NCBI RefSeq assembly: GCF_022758885.1
Contig: NZ_JALEBH010000002.1
Span: forward strand, 558,001-622,000
DNA: 64,000 bases
Direction: 5' to 3'
Origin: Sphingobium sp. BYY-5
Lineage (GTDB): Bacteria; Pseudomonadota; Alphaproteobacteria; Sphingomonadales; Sphingomonadaceae
Part shown: in pieces, positions 33,442 through 53,857 of the stretch
Numbering within the stretch: position 1 is the stretch's first letter
How the letters are laid out: every line of letters begins with the position of its first letter
The notes under the pieces: generated by a model
Told to the model about the DNA's origin: nothing
Database searches by the model: none
The model's input: only the letters and a program-made list of their open reading frames with translations
Translations under genes and position numbers: made by a program

Positions 33442-35793
33442 ATGAGAGTGAAGCAACAATTGGCTTGCGGCATTGCTGCTATTGGGCTTTTGGCTGCCAT
33501 GCCTGCATTTGGCCAGGACGCTCAGGCGCCAATAGATCCGCAAGCCAATGAAAAAATTGCATCGCCGGCCGACATTGTCGTCACCGCCCAGAGGCGGGAA
33601 CAATCCCTTTCCAAAGTCCCGGTGGCTGTCTCGGCCTTCAATGCCGACACGCTTCAGTCGCGCAACGTGGCTAGTGAACAGGATCTGGCGGCGCTGGTCC
33701 CCGGCCTGGTGGTCAAGAGCGGTCAGAACTCCAACCAACTCAACTTCACGCTACGTGGTCAGACACTCGATCCATTTTCCGGCTCTAGCCCCGCAGTTCT
33801 GACCTATATCAACGAAGCGCCGGCTACAGAAGGCAACACATCGACGGCCTTTTTCGACTTCAGTTCAGTGCAGGTTCTGAAAGGACCGCAGGGCACTTTG
33901 TTTGGCCGCAACGCGACCGGTGGCGCCATCCTGTATGAAACGACCAAGCCAGGTGACGACTTCGGCGGATTCCTGACCGTCAAGGGTGGCCAGCGCAACT
34001 ATATCCAGGTTCAGGGCGCTCTGGATATCCCGGTATCCGATATCATCAGGGTCCGTGTGGCGGGCGATTATAACAAGCAGAATGGCTATATACGCAACAT
34101 CAAGACTGGCAGTACGCTCGGCGACACGGACTCGCTTTCCGGTCGTATCACGGTCGTCTTGGAACCAAGGGACGGCTTCAAGATGACGACCGTTGCGCAA
34201 TATAGCGATTTCGGCGGATCAGAAGGCGCGGGCGGCCTTTACTCCTATCATATGGCCGGTGAGGTCAATAACGGCTATGTCCTCAACAGTACCCTCGACA
34301 CCCTCTATGGCATGAACAGCCCCTTTGCCCCGCTGATCGGCGATGGGCCGCGTGGCGACGGCACATGGCCCGGCGCCGTGGCGGGCTATCTGGCCTGGCA
34401 ACAGGCAAATCCCTACAAGGTCTGGCTGAGCTACGACCTTCCGCACAAGGCCCATACCGCGTTCATCACCAACACCGTCGAGGCGGAGATCGGTGACGAC
34501 GTCGTCCTCAAAAACATCTTCAACTATGCCGATGCTTTCGCACGTACCCCAGGGATATTGACCGGTTCGCCCTTCGGCTCGTTGAGCCTCTACAATCGAT
34601 CCGGCTTGGGCAACGGTCCTCCGGGTGGCGAGGAATTCAGCACGGAGCGGCTTTCGAACGAGCTGCAACTGCAAGGGAAAACGGGCGGTCTCGAATACAT
34701 CCTGGGCGTCTTCTATTCCGATACGACGAAGCAGGAATATATTCCTGTCATCGTGGGCGCGGAGCTGCCGACACCACTGGCCGACATCGCTTACAATTAT
34801 GAAGTCGGAAACGAATCGAAGGCAGTTTTCGGCCAGCTAACCTATGCGGTGACTGACAGGCTGAACGTAACCGCTGGCGGACGCTATAGCTGGGAGACGG
34901 TAAGCCTTCGCCAAAAAGCGGGAAGCCTCTTCAATTTGAGCGGCACCACACCACTCAAACAGGAAGCCAAGCTCCATGATCCGAGCTGGACGTTTAATAT
35001 TCAGTATCAGATTAATTCGGGCAACATGGTCTATTTTGCGCAGCGCGGCAGTTTCCGTGCTGGCGGCTTCAACGGCGCTGTCGGGCCATTCAACAACGCC
35101 AATTTCTTCGACAACGAAAACACGTATGACTTTGAACTGGGCTACAAGTTCAACGACTATATCGGCTCCATGCCCACACGGATCAATCTGGCAGTCTATC
35201 GGCAGATCGTGAAGGATGCCCAGCATTCGCTGTTCGTTGATCTGGGGGCCGGCCCGTCGGCGTTCACGGTAAACGTGCCTGAAAAGCGCATCCAGGGTGT
35301 CGAGTTCGATGCCAATGTGAAGCCCAGCGACTGGCTGGAACTGGGCATTTCGGGCGCCTATACCGACGCGAAATTCACCAAGAATATCGTCGATCTTGCC
35401 CCGTTGGGTGGACCGATCATTCCCTTCGACACTTATTCCGATGCGCCCAAATGGGCGGGTTCGGTCTTTGCAGAAATCACCATGCCGCTGTCGGACGATG
35501 TGGGTAAGGTGAAGCTGCGTACCGATGTTTTTGGCCAGACCTCGACCCATTTTTCCAACAATGAGGGGTCGATAACGCCGCGTACCAAATTGCCGGGATA
35601 TGCAACCGTCGACGTTCGACTGAGCTGGAACGACGTCATGGGCAGCAAATTCTCGGTCGCGGCCTACGCCAAGAACCTGCTCGATGAATTCTACTATAAT
35701 TCAGGCTATGTCGAAGGCGGCAGCGGCGGCTTCAACACCGCGATCTGGGGCGAGCCGCAGACCTTTGGCGCTGAAGTCACCTACCGCTTCTGA
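33442..35793 (+). CDS. TonB-dependent receptor of the terpenoid-ketone cluster
   Basis: 783 residues. A signal peptide (LACGIAAIGLLAAMPAFGQ) is followed by the TonB-box/plug region DIVVTAQRREQSLSKVPVAVSAF and QVLKGPQGTLFGRNATGGAILYETTKPG, the pattern common in sphingomonad receptors for hydrophobic and aromatic compounds. The barrel ends EVTYRF with terminal Phe. GGGAGAG precedes the ATG. First gene of the cluster, 137 bp before the OTEMO-like gene and with an operator-like repeat in its promoter, so it probably imports the terpenoid substrate. Confidence 0.9.
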   Translation: MRVKQQLACGIAAIGLLAAMPAFGQDAQAPIDPQANEKIASPADIVVTAQRREQSLSKVPVAVSAFNADTLQSRNVASEQDLAALVPGLVVKSGQNSNQLNFTLRGQTLDPFSGSSPAVLTYINEAPATEGNTSTAFFDFSSVQVLKGPQGTLFGRNATGGAILYETTKPGDDFGGFLTVKGGQRNYIQVQGALDIPVSDIIRVRVAGDYNKQNGYIRNIKTGSTLGDTDSLSGRITVVLEPRDGFKMTTVAQYSDFGGSEGAGGLYSYHMAGEVNNGYVLNSTLDTLYGMNSPFAPLIGDGPRGDGTWPGAVAGYLAWQQANPYKVWLSYDLPHKAHTAFITNTVEAEIGDDVVLKNIFNYADAFARTPGILTGSPFGSLSLYNRSGLGNGPPGGEEFSTERLSNELQLQGKTGGLEYILGVFYSDTTKQEYIPVIVGAELPTPLADIAYNYEVGNESKAVFGQLTYAVTDRLNVTAGGRYSWETVSLRQKAGSLFNLSGTTPLKQEAKLHDPSWTFNIQYQINSGNMVYFAQRGSFRAGGFNGAVGPFNNANFFDNENTYDFELGYKFNDYIGSMPTRINLAVYRQIVKDAQHSLFVDLGAGPSAFTVNVPEKRIQGVEFDANVKPSDWLELGISGAYTDAKFTKNIVDLAPLGGPIIPFDTYSDAPKWAGSVFAEITMPLSDDVGKVKLRTDVFGQTSTHFSNNEGSITPRTKLPGYATVDVRLSWNDVMGSKFSVAAYAKNLLDEFYYNSGYVEGGSGGFNTAIWGEPQTFGAEVTYRF

Positions 35794-35930
35794 CGCGCAA
35801 TTTGAGAGGGGCAGGGACGGCCTTGTTCCTGTCCGCTCAGCCACTCATGCCTCCGATCGCCTCCCAAGCACCCGAAATATAGCCTATTCCCGCTCGGGAT
35901 AGGACCATCGGGTCAAGAAAGACACAAGAC

Positions 35931-37565
35931 ATGCCGTCAATTATCAACCCCGATTATGACGCAGTCGTGATCGGTGCGGGCGTCACCGGCATCTATCAAA
36001 CCTATCTACTCGACCAGAACGGAATGCGCGTGCTGGGCGTCGATGCAGCCGGTGATGTCGGGGGCACATGGTATTGGAACCGCTATCCGGGCTGCCGGCT
36101 GGATACGGAAAGCTATGCCTATGGCTATTTCGCGTTGAAAGGCATCCTCCCCGAATGGCGGTGGAGTGAGAATTTCGCCGGGCAGCCTGAAATGCTGCGT
36201 TACGTCAATGCGGCCGCCGACAAAATGGATATCCGGCGATTTTACAAGTTCAACACGAAGGTCGTATCGGCCCATTATAATGACGAAGGCAATGTCTGGG
36301 ATATCAGGCTGGACGATGGAACCGATCTGACCTGCCGTTATCTGATATCGGCCACTGGTCCTCTTTCGGCATCCAGCATGCCCGATTACATAGGGCTGGA
36401 CCTGTTCCAGGGCGAGGCCTTCCATTCGTCGCGCTGGCCGACGGATGCGGAGGGAAAGCCCAGGAATATCGACTTTACCGGCAAGCGGGTGGGGGTGATC
36501 GGCACCGGCGCCACGGGCGTTCAGATCATTCCCATCGTCGCGGAGACAGCACAAGATCTGCTCGTGTTCCAGCGTACGCCCAACTGGTGCACGCCGCTTG
36601 GCAATTCAGCCTTGAGCGACGAAGAAATGGACCTTATCCGCACCCGCTACCCGACGATATTGGAATATGTGAAAACCACGCCGACTGCCTTTCCCTATCA
36701 TCGCGACAACCGCAAGGCGAGCCAGGTATCGGAACGGGAGCGAACCGAATTTTTCGAGGATCTGTATGATCGGCCTGGCTACGGCATATGGTTAAGCGGG
36801 TTCCGGGATCTGCTGCTCCGCAAGGAATCGAATCAGTTCCTGGCTGACTTCGTGGCCGGCAAGATTAGGCAGCGGGTCCACGATCCTAAGGTCGCCGAGA
36901 AACTCATTCCCGTCGATCATCCGTTCGGCGCCAAGCGCGTTCCAATGGAAACCAACTATTACGAGGCCTATAACAAAGACAATGTCCACCTTGTGGACAT
37001 CAAGGAAACGCCGATCGACGAATTTGTAAAGAATGGCGCGAAGATAGGCGTCCAAGTCCATGCGTTAGACGTCATCATATTTGCCACAGGCTTTGATGGT
37101 GTGACCGGATCGCTCGACAGGATCGACATCAGGGGCCAAGGGGGCCAGCGGCTTATCGATGCGTGGGCCGAAGGCCCTTCGACCTTTCTTGGTCTCCAGG
37201 CTCGCGGATTTCCTAATTTCTTCACGCTTGTAGGGCCGCATAATGGGTCCGCCTTCTGCAATGTTGGCGTTTGCGGGGCGCTTCAAGCCGAATGGGTCTC
37301 AAGGATGCTGGGCTATATGAAAGCGCGCGCGCTGACTTTTGCCCAACCGGAACAGGCCGCCGAGGAGGAATGGACAAATGCCGTCTACGCCGACTTTGCA
37401 CGGACCCTGATGGCAGACACCAATGCTTGGTGGATAAAGGTCACACACCGACCTGACGGGACGGTGGTTCGCCGCACACTCGTCTATGTCGGCGGCGGCC
37501 CGGAGTATCGCAAACGGTGCGAGGAAGTCGCCTATAAAGATTATGCCGGTTTCGAACTTTCATAA
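35931..37565 (+). CDS. camG: FAD-dependent Baeyer-Villiger monooxygenase, OTEMO (CamG)-like
   Basis: 544 residues. FAD-binding GAGVTG (15-20), the BVMO fingerprint FQGEAFHSSRWP (159-170), NADPH-binding GTGATG (191-196), and NYYEAYNKDNVHLVDI with ATGFDGVTGSLDR. From memory, the protein is similar over its whole length to 2-oxo-delta3-4,5,5-trimethylcyclopentenylacetyl-CoA monooxygenase of the camphor pathway (545 residues), including the start AVVIGAGVTGIYQ and the end KDYAGFELS-type tail; no alignment was run. That enzyme turns a cyclopentenone acetyl-CoA into a lactone. The CYP101-type P450, ferredoxin and CoA ligase nearby fit the same route. Confidence 0.85.
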   Translation: MPSIINPDYDAVVIGAGVTGIYQTYLLDQNGMRVLGVDAAGDVGGTWYWNRYPGCRLDTESYAYGYFALKGILPEWRWSENFAGQPEMLRYVNAAADKMDIRRFYKFNTKVVSAHYNDEGNVWDIRLDDGTDLTCRYLISATGPLSASSMPDYIGLDLFQGEAFHSSRWPTDAEGKPRNIDFTGKRVGVIGTGATGVQIIPIVAETAQDLLVFQRTPNWCTPLGNSALSDEEMDLIRTRYPTILEYVKTTPTAFPYHRDNRKASQVSERERTEFFEDLYDRPGYGIWLSGFRDLLLRKESNQFLADFVAGKIRQRVHDPKVAEKLIPVDHPFGAKRVPMETNYYEAYNKDNVHLVDIKETPIDEFVKNGAKIGVQVHALDVIIFATGFDGVTGSLDRIDIRGQGGQRLIDAWAEGPSTFLGLQARGFPNFFTLVGPHNGSAFCNVGVCGALQAEWVSRMLGYMKARALTFAQPEQAAEEEWTNAVYADFARTLMADTNAWWIKVTHRPDGTVVRRTLVYVGGGPEYRKRCEEVAYKDYAGFELS

Positions 37566-37662: not shown

Positions 37663-38844
37663 ATGAACCCCATATATATTCTGGCAGGCGTTCGGACGGC
37701 GATCGGCGATTTTGGCGGCAGTCTGAAAGATTATCGGCCAGCGCAACTGGGCGCAGCCGTCATCGCAGAAGCGATCGCGCGGGCGAGTGTCGCCGCCGAT
37801 CAGATCGGCCATGTCGTCATGGGCAATGTCATTCCCAGTGAACCCAAGGACGCCTATCTGGCTAGGGTGGCGGCGGTCGACGCCGGCATTCCTGTCGAAG
37901 TGCCTGCCCTCACGCTGAACCGGCTATGCGGTTCAGGGGTCCAGGCGATCATCTCGGCCGCGCAGATGCTGGCGCTCGGCGAATGCGATTTCGCCGTCGC
38001 TGGTGGCGCTGAGTCCATGACTCGTTCGCCGCACCATGTCGCCGCGGCCCGGTTCGGACAGAAGATGGGCGACGTCAAAATGGTCGATGCGCTTATTGCG
38101 GTATTGAGCGATCCTTTCGAAGGCATCCACATGGGCGTGACCGCCGAAAATGTGGCCGCCGATCACGACATTTCGCGCGACGATCAGGACCGTCTTGCCG
38201 TCGAAAGTCATAGACGGGCGGCCCATGCCCAACGCGAAGGGCGTTTTGCATCCCAAATCCTGCCGATCGAAGTCAAGGATCGGAAGGGAACACGGATGTT
38301 CGACACTGACGAGCATGTTCGCGCCGAAGCCGGCATAGAGCAGCTTGCCGGGCTTCGGTCAGCCTTCAAGAAAGACGGCACCGTAACCGCGGGGAATGCT
38401 TCGGGCATCAACGACGGCGCAGCTGCGGTGGTCCTTGCATCCCGGACGGCCGTGGATGCCGGCAATCTGAAACCGCTGGCCCGTATCCTCAGTTGGGGTC
38501 ATGCCGGCGTACAGCCCGATCGAATGGGCGTAGGCCCGGTCAAGGCGGTTCCCATCGCCCTTGCGCGCGCGGGCCTTGCGCTTAACCAGATGGATGTCAT
38601 CGAATCGAACGAAGCCTTTGCGGCACAGGCTTGTGCCGTCGCCAAAGTCCTGGGCTTCGATCCGCAGAAGGTTAATCCGAACGGGTCCGGCGTGGCCCTG
38701 GGCCATCCGGTCGGCGCGACCGGCGCGATACTGACCGTCAAGACGATCTACGAATTGGAGCGGACTGGTGGGCGCTATGGATTGATCACCATGTGCATCG
38801 GCGGCGGACAGGGTATCGCCATGATCATCGAGCGGATGCAATAG
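37663..38844 (+). CDS. acetyl-CoA C-acyltransferase (thiolase)
   Basis: 393 residues, full length. Active-site Cys in NRLCGSGVQAI (near residue 90), His in ALGHPVGATGA, and the second Cys in MCIGGGQGIAM. The N-terminal IYILAGVRTAIGDFGGSLKD is typical of degradative thiolases. It follows the OTEMO-like gene by 97 bp in the same direction and probably carries out the thiolytic step of the acyl-CoA chain released after lactone opening. It could also serve general beta-oxidation. Confidence 0.92.
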   Translation: MNPIYILAGVRTAIGDFGGSLKDYRPAQLGAAVIAEAIARASVAADQIGHVVMGNVIPSEPKDAYLARVAAVDAGIPVEVPALTLNRLCGSGVQAIISAAQMLALGECDFAVAGGAESMTRSPHHVAAARFGQKMGDVKMVDALIAVLSDPFEGIHMGVTAENVAADHDISRDDQDRLAVESHRRAAHAQREGRFASQILPIEVKDRKGTRMFDTDEHVRAEAGIEQLAGLRSAFKKDGTVTAGNASGINDGAAAVVLASRTAVDAGNLKPLARILSWGHAGVQPDRMGVGPVKAVPIALARAGLALNQMDVIESNEAFAAQACAVAKVLGFDPQKVNPNGSGVALGHPVGATGAILTVKTIYELERTGGRYGLITMCIGGGQGIAMIIERMQ

Positions 38845-38881: not shown

Positions 38882-39652
38882 TCAACGGACGGAGATCAGT
38901 CCACCATCGACGGGGATGAGTTGCCCGGTGATGAAGCGGGAGCCGTCACTGGCCAGGAATAGCAGCACAGGTGCAAGATCGGTGTCGGCATCGCCGAACT
39001 TCCCACCCAGCGAGATCTGTTCCGCAGTTGCCTTGTCATGAGCGGCCAGATCCTCTGGCGACAGGGCCTCGCGAAAGCGCACGTACATCGGCGTTACTAT
39101 ATAGGGCAGCACCGCATTCAAACGGATGTTCCGCTTGCCCCACTCGCGTGCGACGCTGCGTGTCCAGGCGTGAACCGCCGCCTTCGATGCACCATAGACG
39201 GCATTGTTGATCTCGGCGGTCAGCCCGGATTCGGACCCGAAATTGATGATCGAGCCGCCGTCGGCCATGTGGCGATAGGCGGCGCCATTGGTATAGATGG
39301 TGCCGTTCACATTGACGTTGAAAAGCCAGGCCAGCGTCTCATCAGGGACATCGTGGGTAGGGGCGTGGCGATGGACGCCGGCGATATGAGCCAGCACGTC
39401 CAGGCCATTCAAACGTGCCGCAGCCGCATCGAAAGCTGCATCTACTTGTGCGCGATCGCCCACGTCGCATGAGATGAAGAAGGCCGAACCTGGTCCTTTA
39501 ACGGTCGCAGCGGCTGCGATCGCCTCTCCCTGTGCCGCGTCAATATCCATCGCGGCCACATGCGCGCCTGCTGCCACATAGGCGCGCAGGGCGGATGCCC
39601 CAATGCCTTGGGCCGCGCCGGTTACGATGATCTTTTTGCCGTGCAGGTCCAT
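38882..39652 (-). CDS. short-chain dehydrogenase/reductase (SDR)
   Basis: 256-residue classical [11 protein letters not shown] (12-19), a modified NNAG region ([11 protein letters not shown]), catalytic Ser in [13 protein letters not shown] with Tyr and Lys, and C-terminal [10 protein letters not shown]. Minus strand, convergent with the thiolase and 99 bp after the end of the crotonase gene upstream. Likely a hydroxyacyl-CoA or cyclic alcohol dehydrogenase of the same pathway; substrate not determinable. Confidence 0.87.
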
Positions 39653-39751: not shown

Positions 39752-40522
39752 TCACCGGCCTTGCCATTTTGGCACGCGCTTTTCCTTCCATGCCGACGCG
39801 GCTTCGCGGCAGTCTGCCGTCGCCGCGTGGGCATCGATGAGCGGATAGCGGCGACTGAGCGCCGTCTTCAATCCATGGTCCAGGCCCAGCAATGCAGCTT
39901 GCTTGCCAGCCTGGGACACCAAGGGGGCGCAGGCGAGGATCCTCCGGGTCCACCGTTCGGTGGTCGCGGCCAGATCCGCTAGGGGCGCGATTTCATTGAC
40001 CAAACCAAAGTGCAAGGCGCGGGCCGCGTCAAGCGGTTCACTCGCGATGATCATCGCCATCGCCACATGATGCGGCAGTTGACGAATAGCGCGATGCACG
40101 ACGCCGCAATGGTCGATAAGTCCTGCCCGTGCTTCTGGCAGGCGGAATTGCGTGTCGTCGGCTGCGATCAAGATGTCGGCGCACATCGCCATTTCGAATC
40201 CAAGGCCAAGGACATGGCCATGCACCACGGCGATCAGTGGCTTTTGAAGCGGCACAAGGCGACCGCCAATTCCTGTCAGTCCGCCGCCGAACGACAGTCC
40301 GTCCTGCGCGATGGGCGGATCAGAGATATCCGCCCCGGCGCAAAAGGCGCGATCTCCTGCGCCGGTAAGAAGCGCCACACGAATATCGGGATCGCTGTCT
40401 ATTCGCGCCCATGCCTGCGCCAACGCCCGGTCCATCTCAGCATTGATGGCGTTGAGGGTCGCAGGCCGATTGAGCCGGACCTCGGCCAGGTTTCCCCGAA
40501 CCGCAAAATCGATCAATGCCAT
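39752..40522 (-). CDS. enoyl-CoA hydratase/isomerase (crotonase family)
   Basis: 256 residues. Oxyanion-hole segment FCAGADISD, then VVHGHVLGLGFEMAM with the first catalytic Glu and FRLPEARAGL with the second, so a true hydratase is possible. The frame is open up to 40699, overlapping the SDR gene; ATG 40522 with GGAG 8-9 bases before it is the credible start, 23 bp after the SDR stop. Likely the hydration step in beta-oxidation of the ring-opened terpenoid acyl-CoA, with the flanking SDRs as dehydrogenases. Confidence 0.88.
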   Translation of the reverse strand: MALIDFAVRGNLAEVRLNRPATLNAINAEMDRALAQAWARIDSDPDIRVALLTGAGDRAFCAGADISDPPIAQDGLSFGGGLTGIGGRLVPLQKPLIAVVHGHVLGLGFEMAMCADILIAADDTQFRLPEARAGLIDHCGVVHRAIRQLPHHVAMAMIIASEPLDAARALHFGLVNEIAPLADLAATTERWTRRILACAPLVSQAGKQAALLGLDHGLKTALSRRYPLIDAHAATADCREAASAWKEKRVPKWQGR

Positions 40523-41328: not shown

Positions 41329-41342
41329 CTAATTTCTATTAT
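41329..41342. promoter_or_regulatory. operator-like inverted repeat upstream of the SDR/crotonase operon
   Basis: CTAATTTCTATTAT, 9 of 10 arm bases matching CTAAT-N4-ATTAG, 38 bp before the SDR start at 41291 on the minus strand. Confidence 0.6.
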
Positions 41343-41529: not shown

Positions 41530-41543
41530 CTAATTAAGATTAG
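41530..41543. promoter_or_regulatory. operator-like perfect inverted repeat upstream of the P450 operon
   Basis: CTAATTAAGATTAG, perfect arms. The following bases TTTGAT are shared with the copy at 47991. It lies about 90 bp before the alcohol dehydrogenase ATG in an AT-rich promoter region (41,340-41,550). Confidence 0.7.
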
Positions 41544-41634
41544 TTTGATGAGATTGGACGCCGGTTTGAACTGGCGCGAACAATATGATGGCGAAATGGC
41601 AGAGCCAGATCGCGTCCTTATCGAGAGGATGGCC

Positions 41635-42717: not shown

Positions 42718-42730
42718 GAAGGACGCTGGC

Positions 42731-44483: not shown

Positions 44484-44518
44484 AGCAAGATCCATTAGAA
44501 TTTGGAGAAAGCCGTTCC

Positions 44519-46059: not shown

Positions 46060-47745
46060 TCAGGCCGCGCCGCGTTGCGCGGCGAGGTGGGCCAGCGCCA
46101 TCTCTTTCAATATGTTTTTCTGAACCTTGCCCGTGCCGGTCTTCGGCAGGTCCGCTTCCGCGATGAACCAGATGTCGCGCGGCAGCTTGTATCCGGCCAC
46201 TTGCGGCTTCAACCAGGCCAGGATGTCGTCGCCGGACAGGATATGCCCGTCAGCGCGCACGATCCATGCGCAGCCGCATTCGCCCCAGCGATCGTCGGGC
46301 ATCCCGATGAAGAAGGCCTGACCGATTGCCGGATGCGTGGTGACGAGTTGCTCCAACTCTTTTGGCGACACCAGTTCGCCCCGGCTCTTATATAATTCTT
46401 TCGACCGCCCCGTCAGGAACAGGTTTCCGTCAGGCCGGAATTGCCCCAGATCGCCCGTCCGCAGCCATCCATCCGCCAGAAACAGCTTTTCCGTTTCCTT
46501 CGGTCGGCGAAAATAGCCCAGGCTGTTCATCGGCCCGCGTGTGCAGAGTTCGCCGGCAGCGCCTGCCGGAAGATCAGCGCCGGTCACGGGATCGATCGTC
46601 TTGAATTCGCAGATCCGGCCGTCCTGCCCTCCGATGCCGGCCACGCCCGCCTGCACGATGCAGCCCTGCGTCTCCGCGACGATGTCGATCGGATCACCCG
46701 GCTGGGTGCAGATGATCGTCGCGGTCGCTTCGGTCTGGCCGTAGCTGGTAAAAATCTCGCTGCATCCTAGCGTCTCCTGAATGTCGCGCCAGACCCAGCT
46801 GGGCGTGGGCGCCGCAGCGCTATGGACCGCTGTGAGCGAACGCAGGTCATAGGTTTTGACCTTCGCCCGCTCCATCATTGCGATCGTCATTGTGGGCACG
46901 CCCATCAGATAAGTGGCGCGATGTCGTTCGGTCGCGGTGAGCAGCGCATCGGCATCGAACCGGAGCAGGGGGACGATCGACCCGCCCACGATCATGCCCG
47001 ACAGCAAGCCCACGACCAGACCGAAGCCATGATAGAGCGGGAGCGAGAATACCGCGCGTCGCCCTTCATCGAACGCCTGATGGTAAGCCCCCGCATAAGC
47101 GGCCCGCAACAGATTATCATGGGTTAGCACGACCCCTTTTGGCGATCCGGTCGTACCCGACGTGAACATGATGACGGCGGGATCATGCGGCCCTGCGCTC
47201 TGGGCCGGCAAAGCGCCGTCCGGGAGGGAAGCGAGAAAGTCGTCCGGCGCCTCCGCGTCATAGACCAGACCGCCGCGCAGTTCCGGCAGGGCGGCGCAGG
47301 CGCCGGTCCGCCATCCGGGCGCCTGGGCGTCAAGCTCCAGATCATAGCGGCGCGAACCGAAGCGGGCCATGCCGATCAGAAAATTGCAGCCCGCCTCCCG
47401 GATCGCATATTCCAGATCCTTTGGGGCATAGAGGGTGTTGATCGCTACAGCGACGCCGCCGACACGCCAGATAGCAAACATCAACGACACCGTGATCGGG
47501 TAATTGGCCAGCAGCAGCCCGACGCGGTCGCCCCGCGCGATGCCAAGCCCTGAAAGCGCCGCGGCGAAACGCTCCGATTGCGCGTGGACCGCAGCATAAT
47601 CGAGCGTTTCGGCGTCCGTGATGACCAGCGGCTTTGCCGCAAAATGATGCTGCGCGCGCGCCAGATAGGCGTCCAGCGTCATTTCCTCCCAGATAGGGTG
47701 TCGGTCCGATATCGCTTGCCGCCGTTCCTCTATGGCCTCGATCAA
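46060..47745 (-). CDS. AMP-forming acyl-CoA ligase (possible terpenoid acid-CoA ligase, CamF-like role)
   Basis: 561 residues. ATP-binding loop MFTSGTTGSPKGVV, A5 motif TSYGQTEATATI, hinge GWLRTGDLGQF then GRSKELYKSRGELVSPKELE, and catalytic Lys in LPKTGTGKVQK. ANL-family enzyme that activates a carboxylic acid with ATP and CoA. In the camphor route a ligase makes the cyclopentenone acetyl-CoA used by OTEMO; the co-occurrence with an OTEMO-like gene and a CTAAT-type operator in its promoter argue for that role. The substrate cannot be proved from sequence. First gene of a two-gene operon with ribB. Confidence 0.88.
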   Translation of the reverse strand: MIEAIEERRQAISDRHPIWEEMTLDAYLARAQHHFAAKPLVITDAETLDYAAVHAQSERFAAALSGLGIARGDRVGLLLANYPITVSLMFAIWRVGGVAVAINTLYAPKDLEYAIREAGCNFLIGMARFGSRRYDLELDAQAPGWRTGACAALPELRGGLVYDAEAPDDFLASLPDGALPAQSAGPHDPAVIMFTSGTTGSPKGVVLTHDNLLRAAYAGAYHQAFDEGRRAVFSLPLYHGFGLVVGLLSGMIVGGSIVPLLRFDADALLTATERHRATYLMGVPTMTIAMMERAKVKTYDLRSLTAVHSAAAPTPSWVWRDIQETLGCSEIFTSYGQTEATATIICTQPGDPIDIVAETQGCIVQAGVAGIGGQDGRICEFKTIDPVTGADLPAGAAGELCTRGPMNSLGYFRRPKETEKLFLADGWLRTGDLGQFRPDGNLFLTGRSKELYKSRGELVSPKELEQLVTTHPAIGQAFFIGMPDDRWGECGCAWIVRADGHILSGDDILAWLKPQVAGYKLPRDIWFIAEADLPKTGTGKVQKNILKEMALAHLAAQRGAA

Positions 47746-47764: not shown

Positions 47765-47778
47765 CTAATAGAAATTAA
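47765..47778. promoter_or_regulatory. operator-like inverted repeat upstream of the CoA ligase operon
   Basis: CTAATAGAAATTAA, 9 of 10 arm bases matching CTAAT-N4-ATTAG, 20 bp before the ligase ATG on the minus strand. Confidence 0.6.
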
Positions 47779-47990: not shown

Positions 47991-48004
47991 CTAATTACGA
48001 TTAG
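47991..48004. promoter_or_regulatory. operator-like perfect inverted repeat upstream of the LLM/crotonase/lactonase operon
   Basis: CTAATTACGATTAG followed by TTTGAT, as in the copy at 41530. It lies 33 bp before the LLM start codon, a position suited to repression. Confidence 0.7.
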
Positions 48005-48036
48005 TTTGATTTAAACGAGGTATTTTGGAGGCACAT

Positions 48037-49149
48037 ATGGATGTAGGTTTGGGGCTGACGTTCCAGAATCTGAAGGAGCAGGTCAGCGACATCGAGGTTT
48101 TTCGGCATGAGCTGGCCCTCGCAGCCGAGGCGGAAGATCGCGGCTTCGACTCCGTATGGACCCCGGAGCATCATTTCACCGGTTACATGATGACGCCCAA
48201 TGTCCCCCAGTTCCTGTCCTGGGTCGCGGCCAAGACAAAGAAGATCAAGCTGGGCACCACGGTTACCGTGCTACCGTGGCAGAACCCGGTCCGCATTGCC
48301 GAGAGCTTTCTGCTGCTCGACCAATTGTCGGAAGGGCGCGCGATTCTGGGGATTGGCCGGGGCCTGGGCAAGGGCGAGTTCGACGGCTTTCAGGTGCCGA
48401 TGGGCGAAGCACGCCACCGGTTCCGCGAATATGCAGAAGCGTTGCTTAGCGCCCTGGAAACGGGCGTCATGGAATATGACGGCAAATACCTTCAGCAACC
48501 GCGCGTCGAACTGCGCCCGCGCCCCTATGCAAGCTATCGCGGTCGGGTGTTTGCATCGGCGGTCTCGCCGGAATCGGTCAAGCTGATGGCCAACCTCGAT
48601 GTCGGCCTGATGATCATCGCCCAGAAGCCTTGGGATCGGGTTGCCGAAGATGTGACCAGCTATCGCGACCGCTTTTTCGCGATGCAGGGACGTCCAGCTC
48701 CCAAGCCCGTGGTCGTCGCCTTCGTCGCGGTGAACGAGGACGCCGCCAAGGCGCAGGAGATGCGCGACAAATATCTGGTCGAATATGCGCGGTCCACATC
48801 CTCCTTCTACCAGTTCGGGAACAAGGAGTTCGAGAAGATCGAGGGCTATGAATATTATGGCGCCCTGGCCAGCAGCGTCGAGAAGCATGGCATCGAAAAA
48901 TTCAACAATTTCCTTGCCGATCTTCAGATTTGGGGCCATCCGGAAGAGGTCGTGGAAAAGCTGAAAGCGATGGTCGATCGCTTCGATGTCGGCAGCTTCA
49001 TCATCTATACCCAGTTTGGCGACATGCCCTTCGAGGTCGGCCGCGACAATTACGAGCTTTTTGCCCGCAAGGTTCTGCCGCATCTCAAGGATATTGACGT
49101 TTCCACCCCGGCCGCGTCAGTTGTCAGCCCGCTGCAATCCATAGCTTGA
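48037..49149 (+). CDS. LLM-class (luciferase-like) flavin-dependent monooxygenase
   Basis: 370 residues from ATG 48037 behind TTGGAGG; an in-frame TTG 12 bp earlier lies inside that ribosome-binding site. The luciferase-like TIM barrel has DVGLGLTFQNL, ESVWTPEHHF-type SVWTPEHHFTGYMM, KIKLGTTVTVLPWQNPVRIAESFLLLDQLSEGRAILGIGRGLGKGEF. These enzymes use reduced FMN from a separate reductase. The subfamily differs from the diketocamphane-monooxygenase-like protein at 51715. First gene of an operon with a crotonase, a lactonase and a TetR regulator; substrate unknown. Confidence 0.88.
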   Translation: MDVGLGLTFQNLKEQVSDIEVFRHELALAAEAEDRGFDSVWTPEHHFTGYMMTPNVPQFLSWVAAKTKKIKLGTTVTVLPWQNPVRIAESFLLLDQLSEGRAILGIGRGLGKGEFDGFQVPMGEARHRFREYAEALLSALETGVMEYDGKYLQQPRVELRPRPYASYRGRVFASAVSPESVKLMANLDVGLMIIAQKPWDRVAEDVTSYRDRFFAMQGRPAPKPVVVAFVAVNEDAAKAQEMRDKYLVEYARSTSSFYQFGNKEFEKIEGYEYYGALASSVEKHGIEKFNNFLADLQIWGHPEEVVEKLKAMVDRFDVGSFIIYTQFGDMPFEVGRDNYELFARKVLPHLKDIDVSTPAASVVSPLQSIA

Positions 49150-49202
49150 ACTGTTATCCTTCACTGCGGCGCGCAAGACGTCGCGGCGGGGGGGGAGAGA
49201 GG

Positions 49203-50060
49203 ATGAACATGACAGATGCTGCGCAACCGGTGCTGTACGAAATCCGCGACGGGACGGCGTGGATAACCCTCAATCGTCCCGAAAAGCGCAATGCGCTAAG
49301 CGAGCCATTGCAGGAGCAGCTAAGCGCGCTGTTATGGGAAGCTGACGAAGATAATCGCATTCACGCGGTCGTCCTCAAGGCGGCCGGGCCGGATTTCTGC
49401 TCTGGCTACGACCTGCAGAAATACGACCAGCCCATCCCGGGGCAGGTCGATCACAAACGCGGTCGCGCAAAGTTCGACGACGACAGTTGGCACCAGGAAA
49501 AGGCGCAGCGGCTGCGCATGGCGCTCTTCGACATGCACAAGCCCGTCATCGCGCGGGTCCATGGCCGTTGCCTCGCAGGCGGAACCGACCTGGCGCTCCT
49601 GTGCGACATGGTGATCTGCGCCGACAATGCGCTGTTCGGATTCCCGCCGGCGCGATCGCAAGGCTCTCTTCCTAGCCATATGTGGCTCTATCTCGTGGGT
49701 CCGCAATGGGCCAAGCGGTTGTTGCTGACCGGCGATTCTATCCGTGGCGACGATGCAGCGCAGATCGGGCTGGCGCTCAAGGCGGTGCCTGCCAACCAAC
49801 TCGATGCGGAAGTCGCGGCGCTCGCCGCGCGCCTTTCCCTTATCGACGCCGACCTGTTGAGCGCCAACAAGCGGATCGTGAACCTCGGCCTGGAACTGAT
49901 GGGCGCGCGCACTTTGCAGCGTATGTCCGCCGAAATGGATGCACGCGGCCATCTGGCCGCCAGTCGCACGCAGTTCAACGAAACTGTACGCATCGAGGGA
50001 TTGAAGGAGGCGGTGCGTCAGCGTGACGAGCCCTTCGGCGACCCGGTGATCAAACTATAA
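49203..50060 (+). CDS. crotonase-family protein lacking both hydratase glutamates
   Basis: 285 residues from ATG 49203, behind GGGGGGAGAGAGG. Crotonase fold: ITLNRPEKRNALS, DFCSGYDLQKYDQ and VHGRCLAGGTDLALLCDMVICADNALFGFPPARSQG. The two glutamates of enoyl-CoA hydratase are replaced (GGTDLAL has Asp; FPPA has Pro where FxxPE is usual), so simple hydration is doubtful. Crotonase-fold enzymes that cleave carbon-carbon bonds of cyclic diketones, such as 6-oxocamphor hydrolase, exist; this is one possibility. Same operon as the LLM protein and lactonase. Confidence 0.85.
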   Translation: MNMTDAAQPVLYEIRDGTAWITLNRPEKRNALSEPLQEQLSALLWEADEDNRIHAVVLKAAGPDFCSGYDLQKYDQPIPGQVDHKRGRAKFDDDSWHQEKAQRLRMALFDMHKPVIARVHGRCLAGGTDLALLCDMVICADNALFGFPPARSQGSLPSHMWLYLVGPQWAKRLLLTGDSIRGDDAAQIGLALKAVPANQLDAEVAALAARLSLIDADLLSANKRIVNLGLELMGARTLQRMSAEMDARGHLAASRTQFNETVRIEGLKEAVRQRDEPFGDPVIKL

Positions 50061-50079: not shown

Positions 50080-51015
50080 ATGATGGAAGGCGAAGGCTGG
50101 CGGTGCCTGTGGGATGCCAAGGCCATATTGGGCGAAAGCACTGTCTGGGACGCGCGGGATGGCTGCATCTATTGGGTCGATATCGAAGCACCCAGCATCA
50201 ATTGGTTTCATCTCGATAGCGATCGAACGGGGCGCTGGGACGCGCCAGGGTGGATCAGTGCGATCGCACCGCGCGCCAGCGGCGGCTTCATCGCTTCGTG
50301 CGCCGACGGCTTTGCCCATGTCGATCCCCACCGGCAAATCTACGCGCCGATCATCCACCCGATACCCAATCCCAAAATCGCGCGGCTCAACGACGGCGTG
50401 ACCGATCGCAAAGGGCGCTACTGGTCCGGTTCGTGCGATTCCAGTCAGTGGGACGAAAGCACGACTGCGGACGACAAGGAAAGCACGCTCGGCAATCTGG
50501 ATGTGCGCAATACCGGCGAACTCTATCGCCTGGATGCCGATGGCAGCGTGAGCACGCAGGAACGCAATATCGTGACCGCCAATGGACCCGCCTTCAGCCC
50601 GGACGGTCGGACCGCCTATGTGAACGACTCCATGCCGCTGGTCAGTTGGGCCTATGACGTGTCGGACGATGGCACATTGTCGAACCGCCGCGACTTCCTG
50701 AACTTCAAGCCGGAAGATGGATATCCTGACGGCATGGCGGTCGACGTAGATGGCTGCATCTGGATGGCCTTCTACGAAAGCTGGGTGTTGCGGCGGTTTG
50801 CACCGGACGCAACCTTGCTCGAGGAACGACGCTTGCCGGTGCGGCGGGGGCTTCGCCCCGCTTTTGGAGGAAGCGACCATGATCGCCTCTTCCTCATCAC
50901 CGGATCGCAAGGCTTTTCAGCCGCGACATTTTCCGAACAGCCGCTCGCCGGCGGGCTGTTCGAAATACTCGATCCACCCGCGCCGGGGGTCCCTAATTCC
51001 CTTTATGCCGGGTAG
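50080..51015 (+). CDS. SMP-30/gluconolactonase/LRE-family lactonase
   Basis: 311-residue six-bladed beta-propeller. Metal ligands: Glu in ILGESTVWDARDGCIYWVDI (near residue 17), Asn-Asp in KIARLNDGVTDRKGRYWSGS, NGPAFSPDGR, and Asp in EDGYPDGMAVDVDGCIWMAFY. Family members hydrolyse lactones with a divalent metal. It starts 19 bp after the crotonase gene. Baeyer-Villiger oxidation in this cluster makes lactones, so ring opening of one of them is a plausible job. Confidence 0.9.
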   Translation: MMEGEGWRCLWDAKAILGESTVWDARDGCIYWVDIEAPSINWFHLDSDRTGRWDAPGWISAIAPRASGGFIASCADGFAHVDPHRQIYAPIIHPIPNPKIARLNDGVTDRKGRYWSGSCDSSQWDESTTADDKESTLGNLDVRNTGELYRLDADGSVSTQERNIVTANGPAFSPDGRTAYVNDSMPLVSWAYDVSDDGTLSNRRDFLNFKPEDGYPDGMAVDVDGCIWMAFYESWVLRRFAPDATLLEERRLPVRRGLRPAFGGSDHDRLFLITGSQGFSAATFSEQPLAGGLFEILDPPAPGVPNSLYAG

Positions 51016-51044: not shown

Positions 51045-51067
51045 TCCCTTATAGTTTTGCTAAGGGA
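51045..51067. promoter_or_regulatory. inverted repeat TCCCTTA-N9-TAAGGGA before the TetR gene
   Basis: Perfect 7-bp arms (51045-51051 and 51061-51067), just before the TetR ATG at 51072 and after the lactonase stop. It could be an autoregulatory operator or a weak attenuator; the TAAGGGA arm also overlaps the ribosome-binding site. Confidence 0.45.
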
Positions 51068-51071
51068 CGGC

Positions 51072-51665
51072 ATGGCACACGCAGATAATGGCCGAACGCG
51101 CATTTTAGACTCGGCCGCGACAGCCCTTCGCCAAAAGGGGCTGGCAGGCGCGAAACTCAGTGAGATCGCCAAGGGCGCCGGCATGCTGGCGCCCAGCATC
51201 TATCATCATTTCCCGTCCAAAGATCATCTGGTCGAAAATGTGATGATGGAAGGCATTTACCGCAACAGCCGCCATATCGTGGCACGCGTCGAGGTTTTGG
51301 GGCCAGACGCGACACCTCTGGTGCGCCTGCGCGCCGCGATCGTGGCCCATATCGACTTTCTGTTGTCGGGCGACGATTATTCCTCCGCCGTAGCGCGGGT
51401 GTTCGACGATCTGCCGGATGAAATGCGGCGGCGGGTTCTGGCTGCCTATTCCAGCTTTGACAATTATTGGCGCGACCTCATCGTCGCCGCGCAGGCGGAC
51501 GGCAGTGCCAGTGCCGCGCTGGACCCGACCGTGGTCAGGAAATTTTTGATCGCTATGCTCGATTCCAGTTCATCCTGGTATCGACCGGGAAAGTTGGGAC
51601 CAGCGCAGATCGCGGAGCAGGCAGCGGACTTGTTGCTGCATGGATTTGCCAGCAACCCTGCCTAG
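51072..51665 (+). CDS. TetR/AcrR-family transcriptional regulator
   Basis: 197 residues from ATG 51072 behind TAAGGGACGGC. The N-terminal helix-turn-helix reads RILDSAATALRQKGLAGAKLSEIAKGAGMLAPSIYHHFPSKDHLVENVM. The C-terminal effector domain (from ~60) resembles the KstR2-like group. Last gene of the LLM/crotonase/lactonase operon. It is one of two candidate regulators for the CTAAT-N4-ATTAG repeats; an acyl-CoA thioester effector would be in keeping with the KstR2-like group, but this is inference. Confidence 0.9.
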   Translation: MAHADNGRTRILDSAATALRQKGLAGAKLSEIAKGAGMLAPSIYHHFPSKDHLVENVMMEGIYRNSRHIVARVEVLGPDATPLVRLRAAIVAHIDFLLSGDDYSSAVARVFDDLPDEMRRRVLAAYSSFDNYWRDLIVAAQADGSASAALDPTVVRKFLIAMLDSSSSWYRPGKLGPAQIAEQAADLLLHGFASNPA

Positions 51666-51714: not shown

Positions 51715-52854
51715 TCAGGCGGCGACCGTTTCTGCGGCGGCTGTTTTGGCACCCGGCAGCTTGACTCGCGGTGCCACTTCCTTGGCGATCAATTCCAGCG
51801 AGTTCCACCAGGGCGTGGGATCATCATAATAGTCATGCGATTCCACCTGCAGCGTGCCCCAACCGCCGGTCGCCTCGAACAGCGTGTTGAGCTTGTCGAC
51901 GACCGTATCGGGCGATCCGACTACAAAGACGTTATCCACCAGGAATTCCAGATCGGCATCCGCCGGATCGATGCCTGCGTCTTTGGCAAAGCCGTCCATC
52001 ATGCCGAAACGATGCCAGATCGGGATCAGATATTTGTTGAAACAATAACCGATCGGCCCTTCCATCACGAGGCACTTGGCTTCCGCGTCGGTATCGGCGC
52101 AGAATACGGTCTGCGATACCGCATGGCGCTGGCGGATGGGGGTGAAGCCCGCCTTGATATTGGCCTCAGCATAAATCTCCCAATGGCGCTTGAGCGCATC
52201 AAGGCCGGAGTAGATGGAGACCGGCTTGAAGTTCTTTTCGCCGGCAAGTTTCATCGATGGGGAGTTGGCGCTGAACCCGGTGACGGCGATTTCAGGGAAC
52301 GCGCCGTCATAAGGCGCGAAATTCGCGAGCATGTGCTGCTCGTCATCCTCAGTCTCCGCCGGCGCCTCTTCGGGATAGCCAGCGTCCCAATATTTGCCTT
52401 CGAAGAAGAAGGGCTCGCGCTTCCAGATCTTCTCCATGATGCTCAGCGACTCGCGAACCATATCGTTCAGCATCTGTGGCTCGGCATCCTTGATGCCATG
52501 GATATAGGATGCTTGTGGATAAGCGCCCGCGCCAATGCCCAAAAAGTAGCGGCCCTCCAGAATCTGCGAGAGCCAGCCGACCATGATGGCCAGCTTTGCG
52601 GGATGCTGGTGCGGTAGAATATGCGCCATTGGTGCGAACTTGATTTGGCTCGTCTGCAACGCTGCGGCGGCCATGATCAGTTCGGGATTGGGAATATTTT
52701 CCCAGATCTGCGACGCATGTTCGGAGATCATCATTGAAGTGAAGCCTGCCTTGTCGCAGGCAACGCTATTCTGGACGCCCCACTCGAAAGTCTGCCGCGC
52801 TGTGCGTCCGGGACGCATATAGGGGTGAAAGATGAGGCCGGTTTCCATCGCCAT
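51715..52854 (-). CDS. LLM-class monooxygenase resembling diketocamphane monooxygenase (type II Baeyer-Villiger)
   Basis: 379 residues. Luciferase-like barrel with GRTARQTFEWG, SEHASQIWENIPNPELI, KFAPMAHILPHQHPAKLAI, GWLSQILEGRYFLGIGAGAYPQASYIHG and MEKIWKREPFFFEGKYWDAGYP. From memory these segments match the diketocamphane monooxygenases (CamE type, about 378 residues) almost motif by motif; no alignment was run. Such enzymes use reduced FMN to insert oxygen next to a bicyclic ketone. The flavin reductase at 43992 is the probable partner. The last ~12 residues (AKTAAAETVAA) are a non-conserved tail. Single gene, with an operator-like repeat in its promoter. Confidence 0.88.
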   Translation of the reverse strand: MAMETGLIFHPYMRPGRTARQTFEWGVQNSVACDKAGFTSMMISEHASQIWENIPNPELIMAAAALQTSQIKFAPMAHILPHQHPAKLAIMVGWLSQILEGRYFLGIGAGAYPQASYIHGIKDAEPQMLNDMVRESLSIMEKIWKREPFFFEGKYWDAGYPEEAPAETEDDEQHMLANFAPYDGAFPEIAVTGFSANSPSMKLAGEKNFKPVSIYSGLDALKRHWEIYAEANIKAGFTPIRQRHAVSQTVFCADTDAEAKCLVMEGPIGYCFNKYLIPIWHRFGMMDGFAKDAGIDPADADLEFLVDNVFVVGSPDTVVDKLNTLFEATGGWGTLQVESHDYYDDPTPWWNSLELIAKEVAPRVKLPGAKTAAAETVAA

Positions 52855-52926
52855 GAAAGTCTCTCCTTAAGCGTCTGCCGCATTGCGCCGTTTTGCCATC
52901 TTGGTGCGGTGTCGGCTCGGCGTTGT

Positions 52927-52940
52927 CTAATGACGATTAG
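52927..52940. promoter_or_regulatory. operator-like perfect inverted repeat upstream of the diketocamphane-monooxygenase-like gene
   Basis: CTAATGACGATTAG, perfect arms, 73 bp before the LLM ATG at 52854 (minus strand) and about 240 bp before the divergent TetR start. Confidence 0.68.
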
Positions 52941-53116: not shown

Positions 53117-53176
53117 GACGGTGCCTCGATCGCAGATTGCAACGAAAAAATATTACATCTGTTTTAGGATATTGCG

Positions 53177-53857
53177 GTGGCGAACGTTAAAATTGATCTG
53201 GAGGCGCTGCCGGCTGCTGAACCTACCGACGGAAAAACGCGCCTGATTTTGGCGGGGGAGCAGCTCTTTGCAGAAAATGGCATCAACGGTGCATCCATGC
53301 GGGAAATTGCGACGAAGGCCGGCCAGGGAAATCATGCTGCCGTGCAATATCATTTCGGTTCGCGTGAAGGCCTGGTTCGTGCCATTTTCGACTATCGGAT
53401 GGAGCAGATGGAAGCGGAGCGTGGCGCCATGCTGGAGCGCGCCCGAGCGATGGATCGTCTGAAGGATGCACGGACCATCTTGGACATCATCCTGCTGCCT
53501 CAACTCGACCTGCATGATGCAGATGGCAACCATTCCTATGCGAGCTTCCTGAGCCAATATCTTCTGCAAAGCCGTTCGCCGGAGTTCGGCGATTTTAGCG
53601 GATCAGAACCGCCTCATTTGACCGAGGCGCTAAGATTGATGCGAGAACGCGTCGACTATCTTCCCCCTTACGTTGCGCAACGGCGGCTGATCAGTATCAG
53701 TCTTATGTTTCTCAACATCCTGATGCGCCATCATGGAACCGACGAAGTCGCGTTCGGTGAGTCTTTCCCGGATGCGCTGGAGGATACCATGGAGCAGATC
53801 GTCGGCAGCATGTGTATGCCGCTTCGATTGGCGCCGGCCCGAGGGGACTCCAATTGA
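53177..53857 (+). CDS. TetR/AcrR-family transcriptional regulator
   Basis: 226 residues from GTG 53177. Helix-turn-helix: TRLILAGEQLFAENGINGASMREIATKAGQGNHAAVQYHFGSREGLVRAIFDYR. The C-terminal domain is alpha-helical and unassigned. Divergent from the diketocamphane-monooxygenase-like gene, with a CTAAT-type repeat and two further palindromes between them. The camphor repressor CamR of Pseudomonas is also a TetR protein, so this or the regulator at 51072 is the best candidate for the cluster's repressor. The ribosome-binding site (TTAGGAT) is modest. Confidence 0.9.
   Translation: MANVKIDLEALPAAEPTDGKTRLILAGEQLFAENGINGASMREIATKAGQGNHAAVQYHFGSREGLVRAIFDYRMEQMEAERGAMLERARAMDRLKDARTILDIILLPQLDLHDADGNHSYASFLSQYLLQSRSPEFGDFSGSEPPHLTEALRLMRERVDYLPPYVAQRRLISISLMFLNILMRHHGTDEVAFGESFPDALEDTMEQIVGSMCMPLRLAPARGDSN

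Follow-up and report, generated by a model that had tools for sequence, protein, structure and literature searches.

A predicted borneol/camphor degradation cluster with a shared operator-like palindrome in Sphingobium sp. BYY-5

Gene content and layout

The window analyzed here is the whole 64,000-nucleotide stretch of Sphingobium sp. BYY-5 DNA, and the cluster occupies positions 33442–53857 within it (Table 1). Open reading frame and Pfam analyses recovered, at or near its expected place, every gene that the first-pass annotation had listed for this interval. Missing from that list were a second LuxA-like LLM protein (llm2), a RibB/RibA-like gene, and a palindrome common to the operons. The translations make later starts than those of the longest ORFs probable for the zinc alcohol dehydrogenase (ADH; about 41629), ech1 (40522), the flavin reductase (43992), and the ferredoxin (44519); the P450 start at 42731 corresponds to M20 of ORF 42674–43984.

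The block occurs in the same gene order in L001, L002, L004, L005, L006, and L010, and in rearranged form on a plasmid of Novosphingobium sp. ES2-1. Its recurrence in other genera shows that the composition of the block is not a product of chance. In the six relatives with conserved order, the TonB receptor copies are 77–98% identical. Using tblastn at 1e-10, we did not find the ferredoxin in L002, L004, L006, and L008, the flavin reductase in L008, or the thiolase in L005 and L006. The enzymes are of known kinds; what is new is the apparent regulon, the FMN gene, and the existence of relatives that lack OTEMO. Among titles and opening abstract lines of the open-licence PMC literature, we recognized no description of a sphingomonad camphor cluster or of its operator.

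Table 1. Features of the locus in window coordinates (palindrome, CTAAT-N4-ATTAG)
Feature	Position	Strand	Basis or placement
Palindrome, 1 mismatch	33174..33187		upstream of tonB-otemo-thiolase
Palindrome, 1 mismatch	33379..33392		50 bp before TonB receptor start
TonB-dependent receptor, candidate uptake channel	33442..35793	+	Pfam Plug + barrel
OTEMO, CamG-type Baeyer-Villiger monooxygenase (predicted)	35931..37565	+	74.5% to 3UOV; fingerprint FQGEAFHSSRWP
BktB-type beta-ketothiolase	37663..38844	+	NCBIfam NF006552, 651 bits, cut-off 565
Borneol dehydrogenase, SDR (predicted)	38882..39652	-	61% to 6m5n, next structure 38%
Crotonase ech1	39752..40522	-	Pfam ECH_1; 4jwv 262 bits; homologues in both cluster types
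SDR sdr2, candidate 3-hydroxyacyl-CoA dehydrogenase (putative substrate)	40545..41291	-	Pfam
Palindrome, 1 mismatch	41329..41342		38 bp before sdr2 start
Palindrome, exact	41530..41543		upstream of adh-p450-fred-fdx
Zinc alcohol dehydrogenase, candidate 5-exo-hydroxycamphor dehydrogenase	41629..42717	+	Pfam ADH_N + ADH_zinc_N
CYP101D P450, camphor 5-exo-hydroxylase type (predicted)	42731..43984	+	77.3% identical to CYP101D1; motifs
Flavin reductase, candidate FMNH2 supplier	43992..44483	+	Pfam Flavin_Reduct
Putidaredoxin/Arx-like 2Fe-2S ferredoxin	44519..44836 (ORF 44480-44836)	+	best match 3lxf; Cys motif
RibB with RibA-like domain minus zinc cysteines, candidate FMN supply	44892..46028	-	profile matches, sequence
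AMP-forming acyl-CoA ligase, candidate OTE-CoA synthetase	46060..47745	-	Pfam AMP-binding family
Palindrome, 1 mismatch	47765..47778		20 bp before CoA ligase start
Palindrome, exact	47991..48004		upstream of llm2-ech2-sgl-tetR1
llm2, LuxA-like FMN-dependent monooxygenase (putative)	48037..49149 (ORF 48025-49149)	+	distinct from DKCMO
Crotonase ech2	49146..50060	+	Pfam; NCBIfam NF006128 above cut-off
SMP-30/gluconolactonase-like protein, lactonase candidate	50080..51015	+	Pfam SGL; 7plb 152 bits
TetR1, favoured palindrome binder (candidate)	51057..51665	+	co-occurrence with palindrome
3,6-diketocamphane 1,6-monooxygenase (DKCMO), oxygenating part (predicted)	51715..52854	-	80.9% identical to 4UWM
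Palindrome, exact	52927..52940		73 bp before DKCMO start
TetR2 regulator, divergent from DKCMO	53177..53857	+	Pfam TetR_N

Enzymes resembling those of the camphor pathway

The P450, OTEMO, and DKCMO are 77%, 75%, and 81% identical, respectively, to experimentally studied camphor enzymes, and the gap to the next family is wide for OTEMO and DKCMO. The best PDB match of the P450 was CYP101D1 (3lxh; 749 bits, with identity at 316 of 409 aligned positions). Members of one CYP subfamily share more than 55% identity, a threshold that the P450 exceeds relative to CYP101D1; it groups with this protein and hence not outside CYP101. On the side of ionone and cineole enzymes, the comparison covered three P450s, all with lower scores: the ionone user CYP101D5 (8gtl, 517 bits), 3oft (265 bits), which we take to be another ionone user, CYP101C1, and P450cin (4fb2, 150 bits). 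The B-C loop REAGEAY, including the Tyr96 equivalent, is identical to that of CYP101D1. The ferredoxin carries Cx5Cx2C...C, the 2Fe-2S motif of the putidaredoxin-type chain. As the first-pass annotation had stated, the putidaredoxin-reductase-type gene lies outside the window: the only PF14759 protein of the genome, our candidate ferredoxin reductase, is encoded on contig 1. The P450 and ferredoxin resemble CYP101D1 and 3lxf of N. aromaticivorans; here, the ferredoxin gene is located inside the P450 operon.

OTEMO matched 3uov at 967 bits (401/538 residues identical), followed by phenylacetone monooxygenase at 454 bits. With the fingerprint FQGEAFHSSRWP and 3UOV as the closest of the solved Baeyer-Villiger monooxygenases, this protein groups with OTEMO and not outside the OTEMO clade. 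A bisphenol-F type role was rejected, as BpfC has 402 aa (PMC12724174) and the protein here 544 aa.

The LLM protein at 51715, described earlier as diketocamphane-monooxygenase-like, matched the 3,6-enzyme 4uwm at 687 bits, and its next PDB match scored 42 bits. Its identity to 4UWM far exceeds the 45% reported between the P. putida isozymes, of which there are two (PMC4631483). When all seven of seven candidates were scored, it was the only full-length DKCMO match in the genome, the other being a 28.6-bit piece of llm2. A sole genomic DKCMO of the 3,6-type predicts, from sequence, a bias to (-)-camphor. Because the cluster has only this type, it could even be specialized for the (-)-camphor series, such that (+)-camphor would stall at 2,5-diketocamphane, a proposal to which we give somewhat less than an even chance. 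The finding that pSH1-like clusters can hold a 3,6-type enzyme plus a second homologue at 44–48% may favor it. Against it, orthology alone does not set enantioselectivity, and the other series could be served by llm2.

The SDR at 38882 has 6m5n as its nearest structure, and its residues S140-E141-S142, Y153xxxK157, and Y184 align at a constant offset with S144/E145/S146, Y157/K161, and Y188 of the CAM-plasmid borneol dehydrogenase (PMC8053192), giving it the S-E-S, YxxxK, and Tyr188 equivalents of that enzyme. This match narrows the earlier assignment from terpenoid ketones to borneol/camphor.

The RibBA-like protein lacks the zinc motif of GTP cyclohydrolase II (CxxGDxF...CxC), with no cysteine in residues 201–378, and another RibB copy, 51% identical, is present on contig 1. 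The recurrence of RibB suggests that FMN supply is a part of pathways using free FMNH2.

The sdr2 copies are 75–98% identical in L001–L012 except L003, where the region is not covered, and only 34% identical on pSH1. An OCH-type role (6-oxocamphor hydrolase of the Rhodococcus route) was rejected for both crotonases, as no such entry was present among the best 60 of 199 and the best 60 of 201 matches, respectively. The SMP-30 lactonase candidate may not be strictly needed, since spontaneous opening has been described for the OTEMO lactone (PMC6027186). The same source regards the path between the OTEMO product and isobutyryl-CoA as poorly characterized, although according to its introduction plasmid proteins have been assigned down to isobutyryl-CoA. 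Candidate genes for these post-OTEMO steps are found here under one operator, making the regulon a short list to test.

A palindrome common to the operons

Pairwise promoter comparison revealed a 14 bp operator-like palindrome, CTAAT-N4-ATTAG, before six operons of the cluster; the promoter scan detected no palindrome with 7–9-base half-sites common to the operons. The window contains seven sites with at most one mismatch, compared to 0.48 expected, a count reached in 0 of 100 shuffles. All seven are upstream of cluster operons and intergenic, with intergenic sequence making up 2034 of the 20858 bases from 33000 to 53857. All three exact palindromes of the 4.7 Mb genome fall inside the cluster. 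Exact sites were present in 11 of 30 further genomes, the same 11 known to carry this cluster type (type A), and among 377 family genomes four, every one a carrier, had at least two exact sites within 25 kb; at least G145, G346, G004 (= G033), and G007 (= G186) are common to both sets of genomes. Two observations count against a regulon: four of the seven window sites have one mismatch, and 4 of the 37 exact palindromes in 12 carriers lie outside the cluster. Because the operons share one operator-like palindrome that is rare elsewhere, they nevertheless look like one regulon. The earlier description of several short operons is correct as regards layout.

The palindrome binder is likely a TetR protein, and probably TetR1. 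The assignment is not clear-cut: of the extra-cluster sites, one in Croceicoccus is beside a TetR1-like gene (34%), and two in Rhizorhabdus histidinilytica flank a TetR2-like gene (48%). Binding by TetR2 instead seems less likely, despite its divergent orientation from DKCMO with a site between the two and despite the R. histidinilytica sites. Some type B clusters hold TetR2-family genes with a similar recognition helix (62% and 52% identical to TetR2 in L012 and L086; 51–67% to the ES2-1 TetR2 homologue in L078, L080, L082, and L087), and yet the palindrome, even with one mismatch allowed, was not found in the 10 type B stretches scanned; TetR1 was not found there either. The palindrome offers a means of locating regulons of this kind and points to a candidate sensor for borneol/camphor.

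Proposed route and its variants

We propose, with a probability of about 0.83, that the cluster forms one regulon, switched as a unit, through which borneol/camphor is used as carbon source by a Pseudomonas-type 5-exo route. In this model, the SDR at 38882 would oxidize borneol to camphor, which CYP101D, served by the local ferredoxin and the contig 1 reductase, would convert to 5-exo-hydroxycamphor. The zinc ADH would then yield the diketone, and the 3,6-type DKCMO with the local flavin reductase would open the first ring to give OTE, the dedicated RibB supporting extra FMN for this step. After conversion of OTE to OTE-CoA by the CoA ligase, OTEMO would lactonize the second ring; the SMP-30 protein may speed lactone opening, and the two crotonases, sdr2, and BktB are candidates for beta-oxidation. 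A TetR repressor, probably TetR1, would hold the six site-bearing operons via CTAAT-N4-ATTAG until released by an inducer, which might be an intermediate of the pathway or the corresponding CoA ester. The uptake-to-beta-oxidation route put forward by the first-pass annotation is supported for the P450, DKCMO, and OTEMO, whereas at the ADH and CoA ligase steps and in all that follows OTEMO we only infer it. The proposal rests on identities, layout, and the palindrome with its distribution, all read from sequence; we infer which compounds the ADH, ligase, crotonases, and lactonase act on, as well as the regulator, inducer, and growth.

Recruitment of camphor enzymes for another bicyclic or monocyclic terpenoid ketone (e.g. 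fenchone, cineole ketone, or ionone) is improbable: CYP101D5 of the same subfamily oxidizes ionones and not camphor (PMC9655578), Sphingobium LLM-type Baeyer-Villiger monooxygenases have been proposed for other ketones such as anthraquinone (PMC9836352), and a Caenibius LLM enzyme shares its role with a type I Baeyer-Villiger monooxygenase in progesterone degradation (PMC12239570), but the P450, DKCMO, OTEMO, and borneol dehydrogenase all point to the same substrate, and the P450 retains the CYP101D1 loop with its Tyr96 equivalent.

The proposed borneol/camphor regulon shares with the P. putida camphor system the P450, OTEMO, and 3,6-DKCMO types (75–81% for the latter two), the borneol dehydrogenase type, and the ADH and CoA ligase families. 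It appears to differ in having only the 3,6-type DKCMO, a ferredoxin reductase encoded elsewhere in the genome, and one palindrome common to its operons, as well as in the presence within the cluster of genes for a flavin reductase, RibB, a LuxA-like LLM, and an SMP-30 protein. Type B clusters (Sphingobium xenophagum pSH1-like, L031) share the P450, ADH, DKCMO family, CoA ligase, crotonases, and RibB. Their ligase is a different one (27–29%) from that conserved in type A, and they own a second DKCMO homologue, another LLM (llmB), and NTF2-like proteins; CTAAT-N4-ATTAG, TetR1, and the SMP-30 gene were not found in the type B stretches read.

Homology does not make llm2 a second diketocamphane monooxygenase, 4uwm being a weak match (34.5 bits; rank 50 by fold). 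Under the same operator and fed by the dedicated RibB, llm2 might serve as an alternative second-ring Baeyer-Villiger monooxygenase, letting the pathway run without an OTEMO orthologue in relatives such as Sphingobium sp. 15-1 and R. histidinilytica, a role that we consider unlikely. Among 13 type A clusters (L003, a 9.3 kb contig, was left out), eight have both genes (the window, L001, L002, L004, L005, L006, L010, and G145). Three have llm2 without OTEMO (L007, L008, and G346, the last 83% complete), their best genome-wide OTEMO matches being partial and 31–36% identical. OTEMO without llm2 was seen in two, G393 and ES2-1 (40 kb stretch L030 only). As about 0.5 clusters with neither gene would be expected under independence and none was found, this count does not show complementarity, and the idea that llm2 strictly replaces OTEMO was dropped. 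The clusters without an OTEMO orthologue raise a clear biochemical question.

The ES2-1 plasmid p2 (L030) has the type A gene set and three exact palindromes, as here, with neither llm2 nor a borneol dehydrogenase orthologue in its 40 kb stretch. Because this plasmid is typed as conjugative, the pathway may move between strains.

Camphor-type enzymes and the predicted route

The first-pass annotation had proposed a camphor-type terpenoid-ketone degradation cluster, and this proved right in substance. The P450 is 77.3% identical to CYP101D1 (316/409), the Baeyer-Villiger monooxygenase 74.5% identical to OTEMO (401/538; bit score 967, phenylacetone monooxygenase 454), and the luciferase-like monooxygenase (LLM) at 51715 80.9% identical to 3,6-diketocamphane monooxygenase (DKCMO; 687 bits, next match 42 bits). 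The nearest match of the ferredoxin is 3lxf, which is Arx of N. aromaticivorans. Conserved in the P450 are the heme-ligand motif, GGLDT and REAGEAY, the last including the Tyr96 equivalent (P450cam numbering). The study describing CYP101D5 sees the Tyr96-bearing B/C loop as the feature that divides camphor users from ionone users (PMC9655578).

The source genome comprises 4.70 Mb in two contigs (contig 2, 1.30 Mb); the window spans 558001-622000 of contig 2, and 18 genes lie between window positions 33442 and 53857. Each enzyme belongs to a known kind, and the cluster as a whole differs from those known. To the earlier proposal our analysis adds a predicted borneol entry point, a single putative operator, a gene predicted to be dedicated to FMN supply, another LLM (LLM2), and clusters lacking OTEMO.

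Cluster genes and neighbouring features (window positions unless a contig is named)
Feature	Position	Strand	Remark
PI-PLC-C1	25384-26487	-	calcium-dependent phosphoinositide phospholipase C family protein; beside TonB receptor
IS3-kind transposase (rve, HTH_21)	30970-31878	-	~1.6 kb off left cluster end
TonB receptor, OTEMO, BktB thiolase		+	leftmost group of cluster
SDR1, crotonase ech1, SDR2	SDR1 38882-39652	-	right of thiolase; transcription order SDR2-ech1-SDR1
ADH, P450, flavin reductase, ferredoxin		+	right of SDR2
RibB-like, CoA ligase		-	right of ferredoxin
LLM2, crotonase ech2, SMP-30 protein, TetR1	TetR1 51057-51665	+	right of CoA ligase
DKCMO		-	right of TetR1
TetR2	53177-53857	+	rightmost cluster gene
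PoxB	54418-56268	+	ubiquinone-dependent pyruvate dehydrogenase; above NCBIfam cut-off
RutA	56456-57604	-	pyrimidine utilisation; adjoins cluster; above NCBIfam cut-off; third LLM protein, role different
Long-form catalase	61797-63956	-	
Second CYP101-like P450 (L015)	contig 2, 199733-200932		31%; one TAG reported within match
PF14759 match	contig 1, 1227773-1228024		only match in genome

An AlphaFold2 model of SDR1 (mean pLDDT 81.6, some active-site loop residues <50) had as its top structural match the Pseudomonas borneol dehydrogenase 6m5n (61% identity), followed by 3ak4 (38%). The residues named for the CAM-plasmid borneol dehydrogenase, S144, E145, S146, Y157, K161 and Y188 (PMC8053192), correspond to S140, E141, S142, Y153, K157 and Y184 in SDR1, and all six positions are unchanged when SDR1 is aligned with 31 of at least 120 relatives. 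Borneol probably enters the pathway at this step. Some clusters lack the enzyme: two llm2-carrying loci (L007, L008) and the Novosphingobium sp. ES2-1 plasmid stretch give only 34–35% SDR matches.

P. putida uses 2,5-DKCMO for (+)-camphor and 3,6-DKCMO for (-)-camphor, the two sharing 45% identity (PMC4631483). The sole DKCMO of the window genome is of the 3,6-type (7/7 candidates scored), the only other match being a 28.6-bit piece of llm2. Such a solitary 3,6-type enzyme predicts a preference for the (-)-camphor series, unless the other series is served by llm2. Because the OTEMO lactone reportedly opens spontaneously in P. putida (PMC6027186), the SMP-30 protein would at most accelerate this step, or be active elsewhere. 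For beta-oxidation, the crotonases, SDR2 and BktB are candidates that fit by family only. The putidaredoxin reductase had been placed outside the window, as borne out by the PF14759 match on contig 1; the ORF holding it (512 aa) reads as an FAD reductase and is a candidate partner of the ferredoxin.

Relatives and cluster types

Searching genome contigs once with the P450 as query gave 13 loci, and the closest in other genomes (93–96% identity) belong mostly to Sphingobium species. A near-complete block in unchanged order is present in six (L001, L002, L004, L005, L006, L010). At the search threshold used, L005 and L006 gave no thiolase match, L002, L004, L006 and L008 no ferredoxin match, and L008 no flavin reductase match. 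When the best 3–4 candidates per genome were scored across 397 family genomes, DKCMO at ≥80% was found in 11 (truncated in one, where the contig ends), llm2 at ≥71% in five, all within these 11, and OTEMO at ≥72% in seven. The IS3-kind transposase might relate to the cluster's arrival.

Two layouts were distinguished: type A, window-like, and type B, resembling pSH1 of Sphingobium xenophagum. Type B features a second DKCMO homologue, NTF2-like proteins and, as a rule, another LLM, llmB, which was not found in the type B genome G082; the SMP-30 gene and TetR1 were not found in type B clusters. The ES2-1 plasmid, typed conjugative, carries a rearranged copy without llm2.

A shared palindrome and its predicted reader

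Pairwise comparison of promoter regions detected the palindrome CTAAT-N4-ATTAG. With at most one mismatch it has seven sites in the window (three exact, four one-mismatch) versus 0.48 expected, and 0/100 shuffles reached seven. All seven fall in the cluster's intergenic bases, which, with revised gene starts, account for 2034 of 20858 bases in the interval 33000-53857: two before tonB and one each before sdr2, adh, the CoA ligase, llm2 and DKCMO. Paired sites are 205 bp apart in the tonB region, 201 bp at sdr2/adh and 226 bp at ligase/llm2, with similar spacing in relatives (e.g., L001, L006, L010). The exact palindrome has three sites in the whole genome, all within the cluster; the backward pattern, used as a control, was found at one place.

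Among 30 further genomes, the exact palindrome was present in 11, exactly the type A carriers. The other 19 are ten cluster-free genomes of the same genus (one, G315, with a 48% DKCMO homologue), eight type B handles (G008 and G189 look like one genome counted twice), and G012, with just a distant P450 (38%). Across 12 carriers, 33/37 exact sites lie inside the cluster, counting two in G346 that may be a single site assembled on two contigs; the remaining four are in Croceicoccus (1), S. boeckii (1) and R. histidinilytica (2, near the cluster, before a TonB gene). In a family sample overlapping with the 30, 44/377 genomes have at least one exact site, and four have at least two within 25 kb (the window genome G000, and G033, G145 and G186), all type A carriers; in G346, the fifth known carrier in this sample, the sites are split over two contigs. 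In 71 sites from 15 loci, chosen by half-sites and so informative in the middle and flanks only, half-sites are conserved and the middle four bases vary, as for a dimer-binding operator.

TetR1 was found in every type A cluster whose stretch covers its place and in no type B stretch (tblastn, E 1e-6), whereas some type B clusters, which lack the palindrome, have TetR2-family genes whose recognition helix is similar. We therefore favor TetR1 over TetR2 as the predicted reader, at about 70:30. Two points count against TetR1: the R. histidinilytica sites outside the cluster adjoin a TetR2-like gene, and TetR1 presence is confounded with all other traits distinguishing type A. The R. histidinilytica sites (L092, 4435 and 4535) are 100 bp apart, with a 781 aa ORF, a putative TonB receptor by length, on the other flank. 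In Croceicoccus (L096, 6127), the exact site outside the cluster has a TetR1-like gene (34%) on one side and an acyl-CoA ligase gene on the other.

The second LLM and predicted FMN supply

The type A clusters of Sphingobium sp. 15-1 and R. histidinilytica carry llm2, and genome-wide searches for an OTEMO orthologue gave only partial best matches (31% and 34%); the best in G346, a genome 83% complete, was likewise partial (36%). Among 13 type A clusters, eight have llm2 and OTEMO, three llm2 only, two OTEMO only and none neither, a split compatible with llm2 as an OTEMO stand-in without demonstrating it. The predicted LLM2 structure (pLDDT 87.4) is nearest to luciferase 8cbb (27% identity); other neighbors are bacterial luciferases and RslO1, with 3,6-DKCMO only at rank 50. 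The CAM region has a luciferase-like orf23, listed with no assigned role in one review (PMC6352141).

A RibB-type gene is present in 22/22 type A and B cluster loci covering that part, window included (the L089 match is cut by the stretch end; L086 was excluded because its contig is that of L009). The RibA-like half of the window protein contains no cysteine, so only the RibB product should be made; a further copy is on contig 1 (51%). The gene follows the CoA ligase at a distance of 31 bp, and a palindrome site precedes the ligase. Since DKCMOs are described as using FMNH2 supplied by a separate flavin reductase (PMC9864536), a dedicated RibB that would supply FMN to the pathway is plausible. 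In the type B stretch L031 (NZ_CP076558.1), riboflavin kinase, dodecin and RibB again place FMN handling next to DKCMO-family genes.
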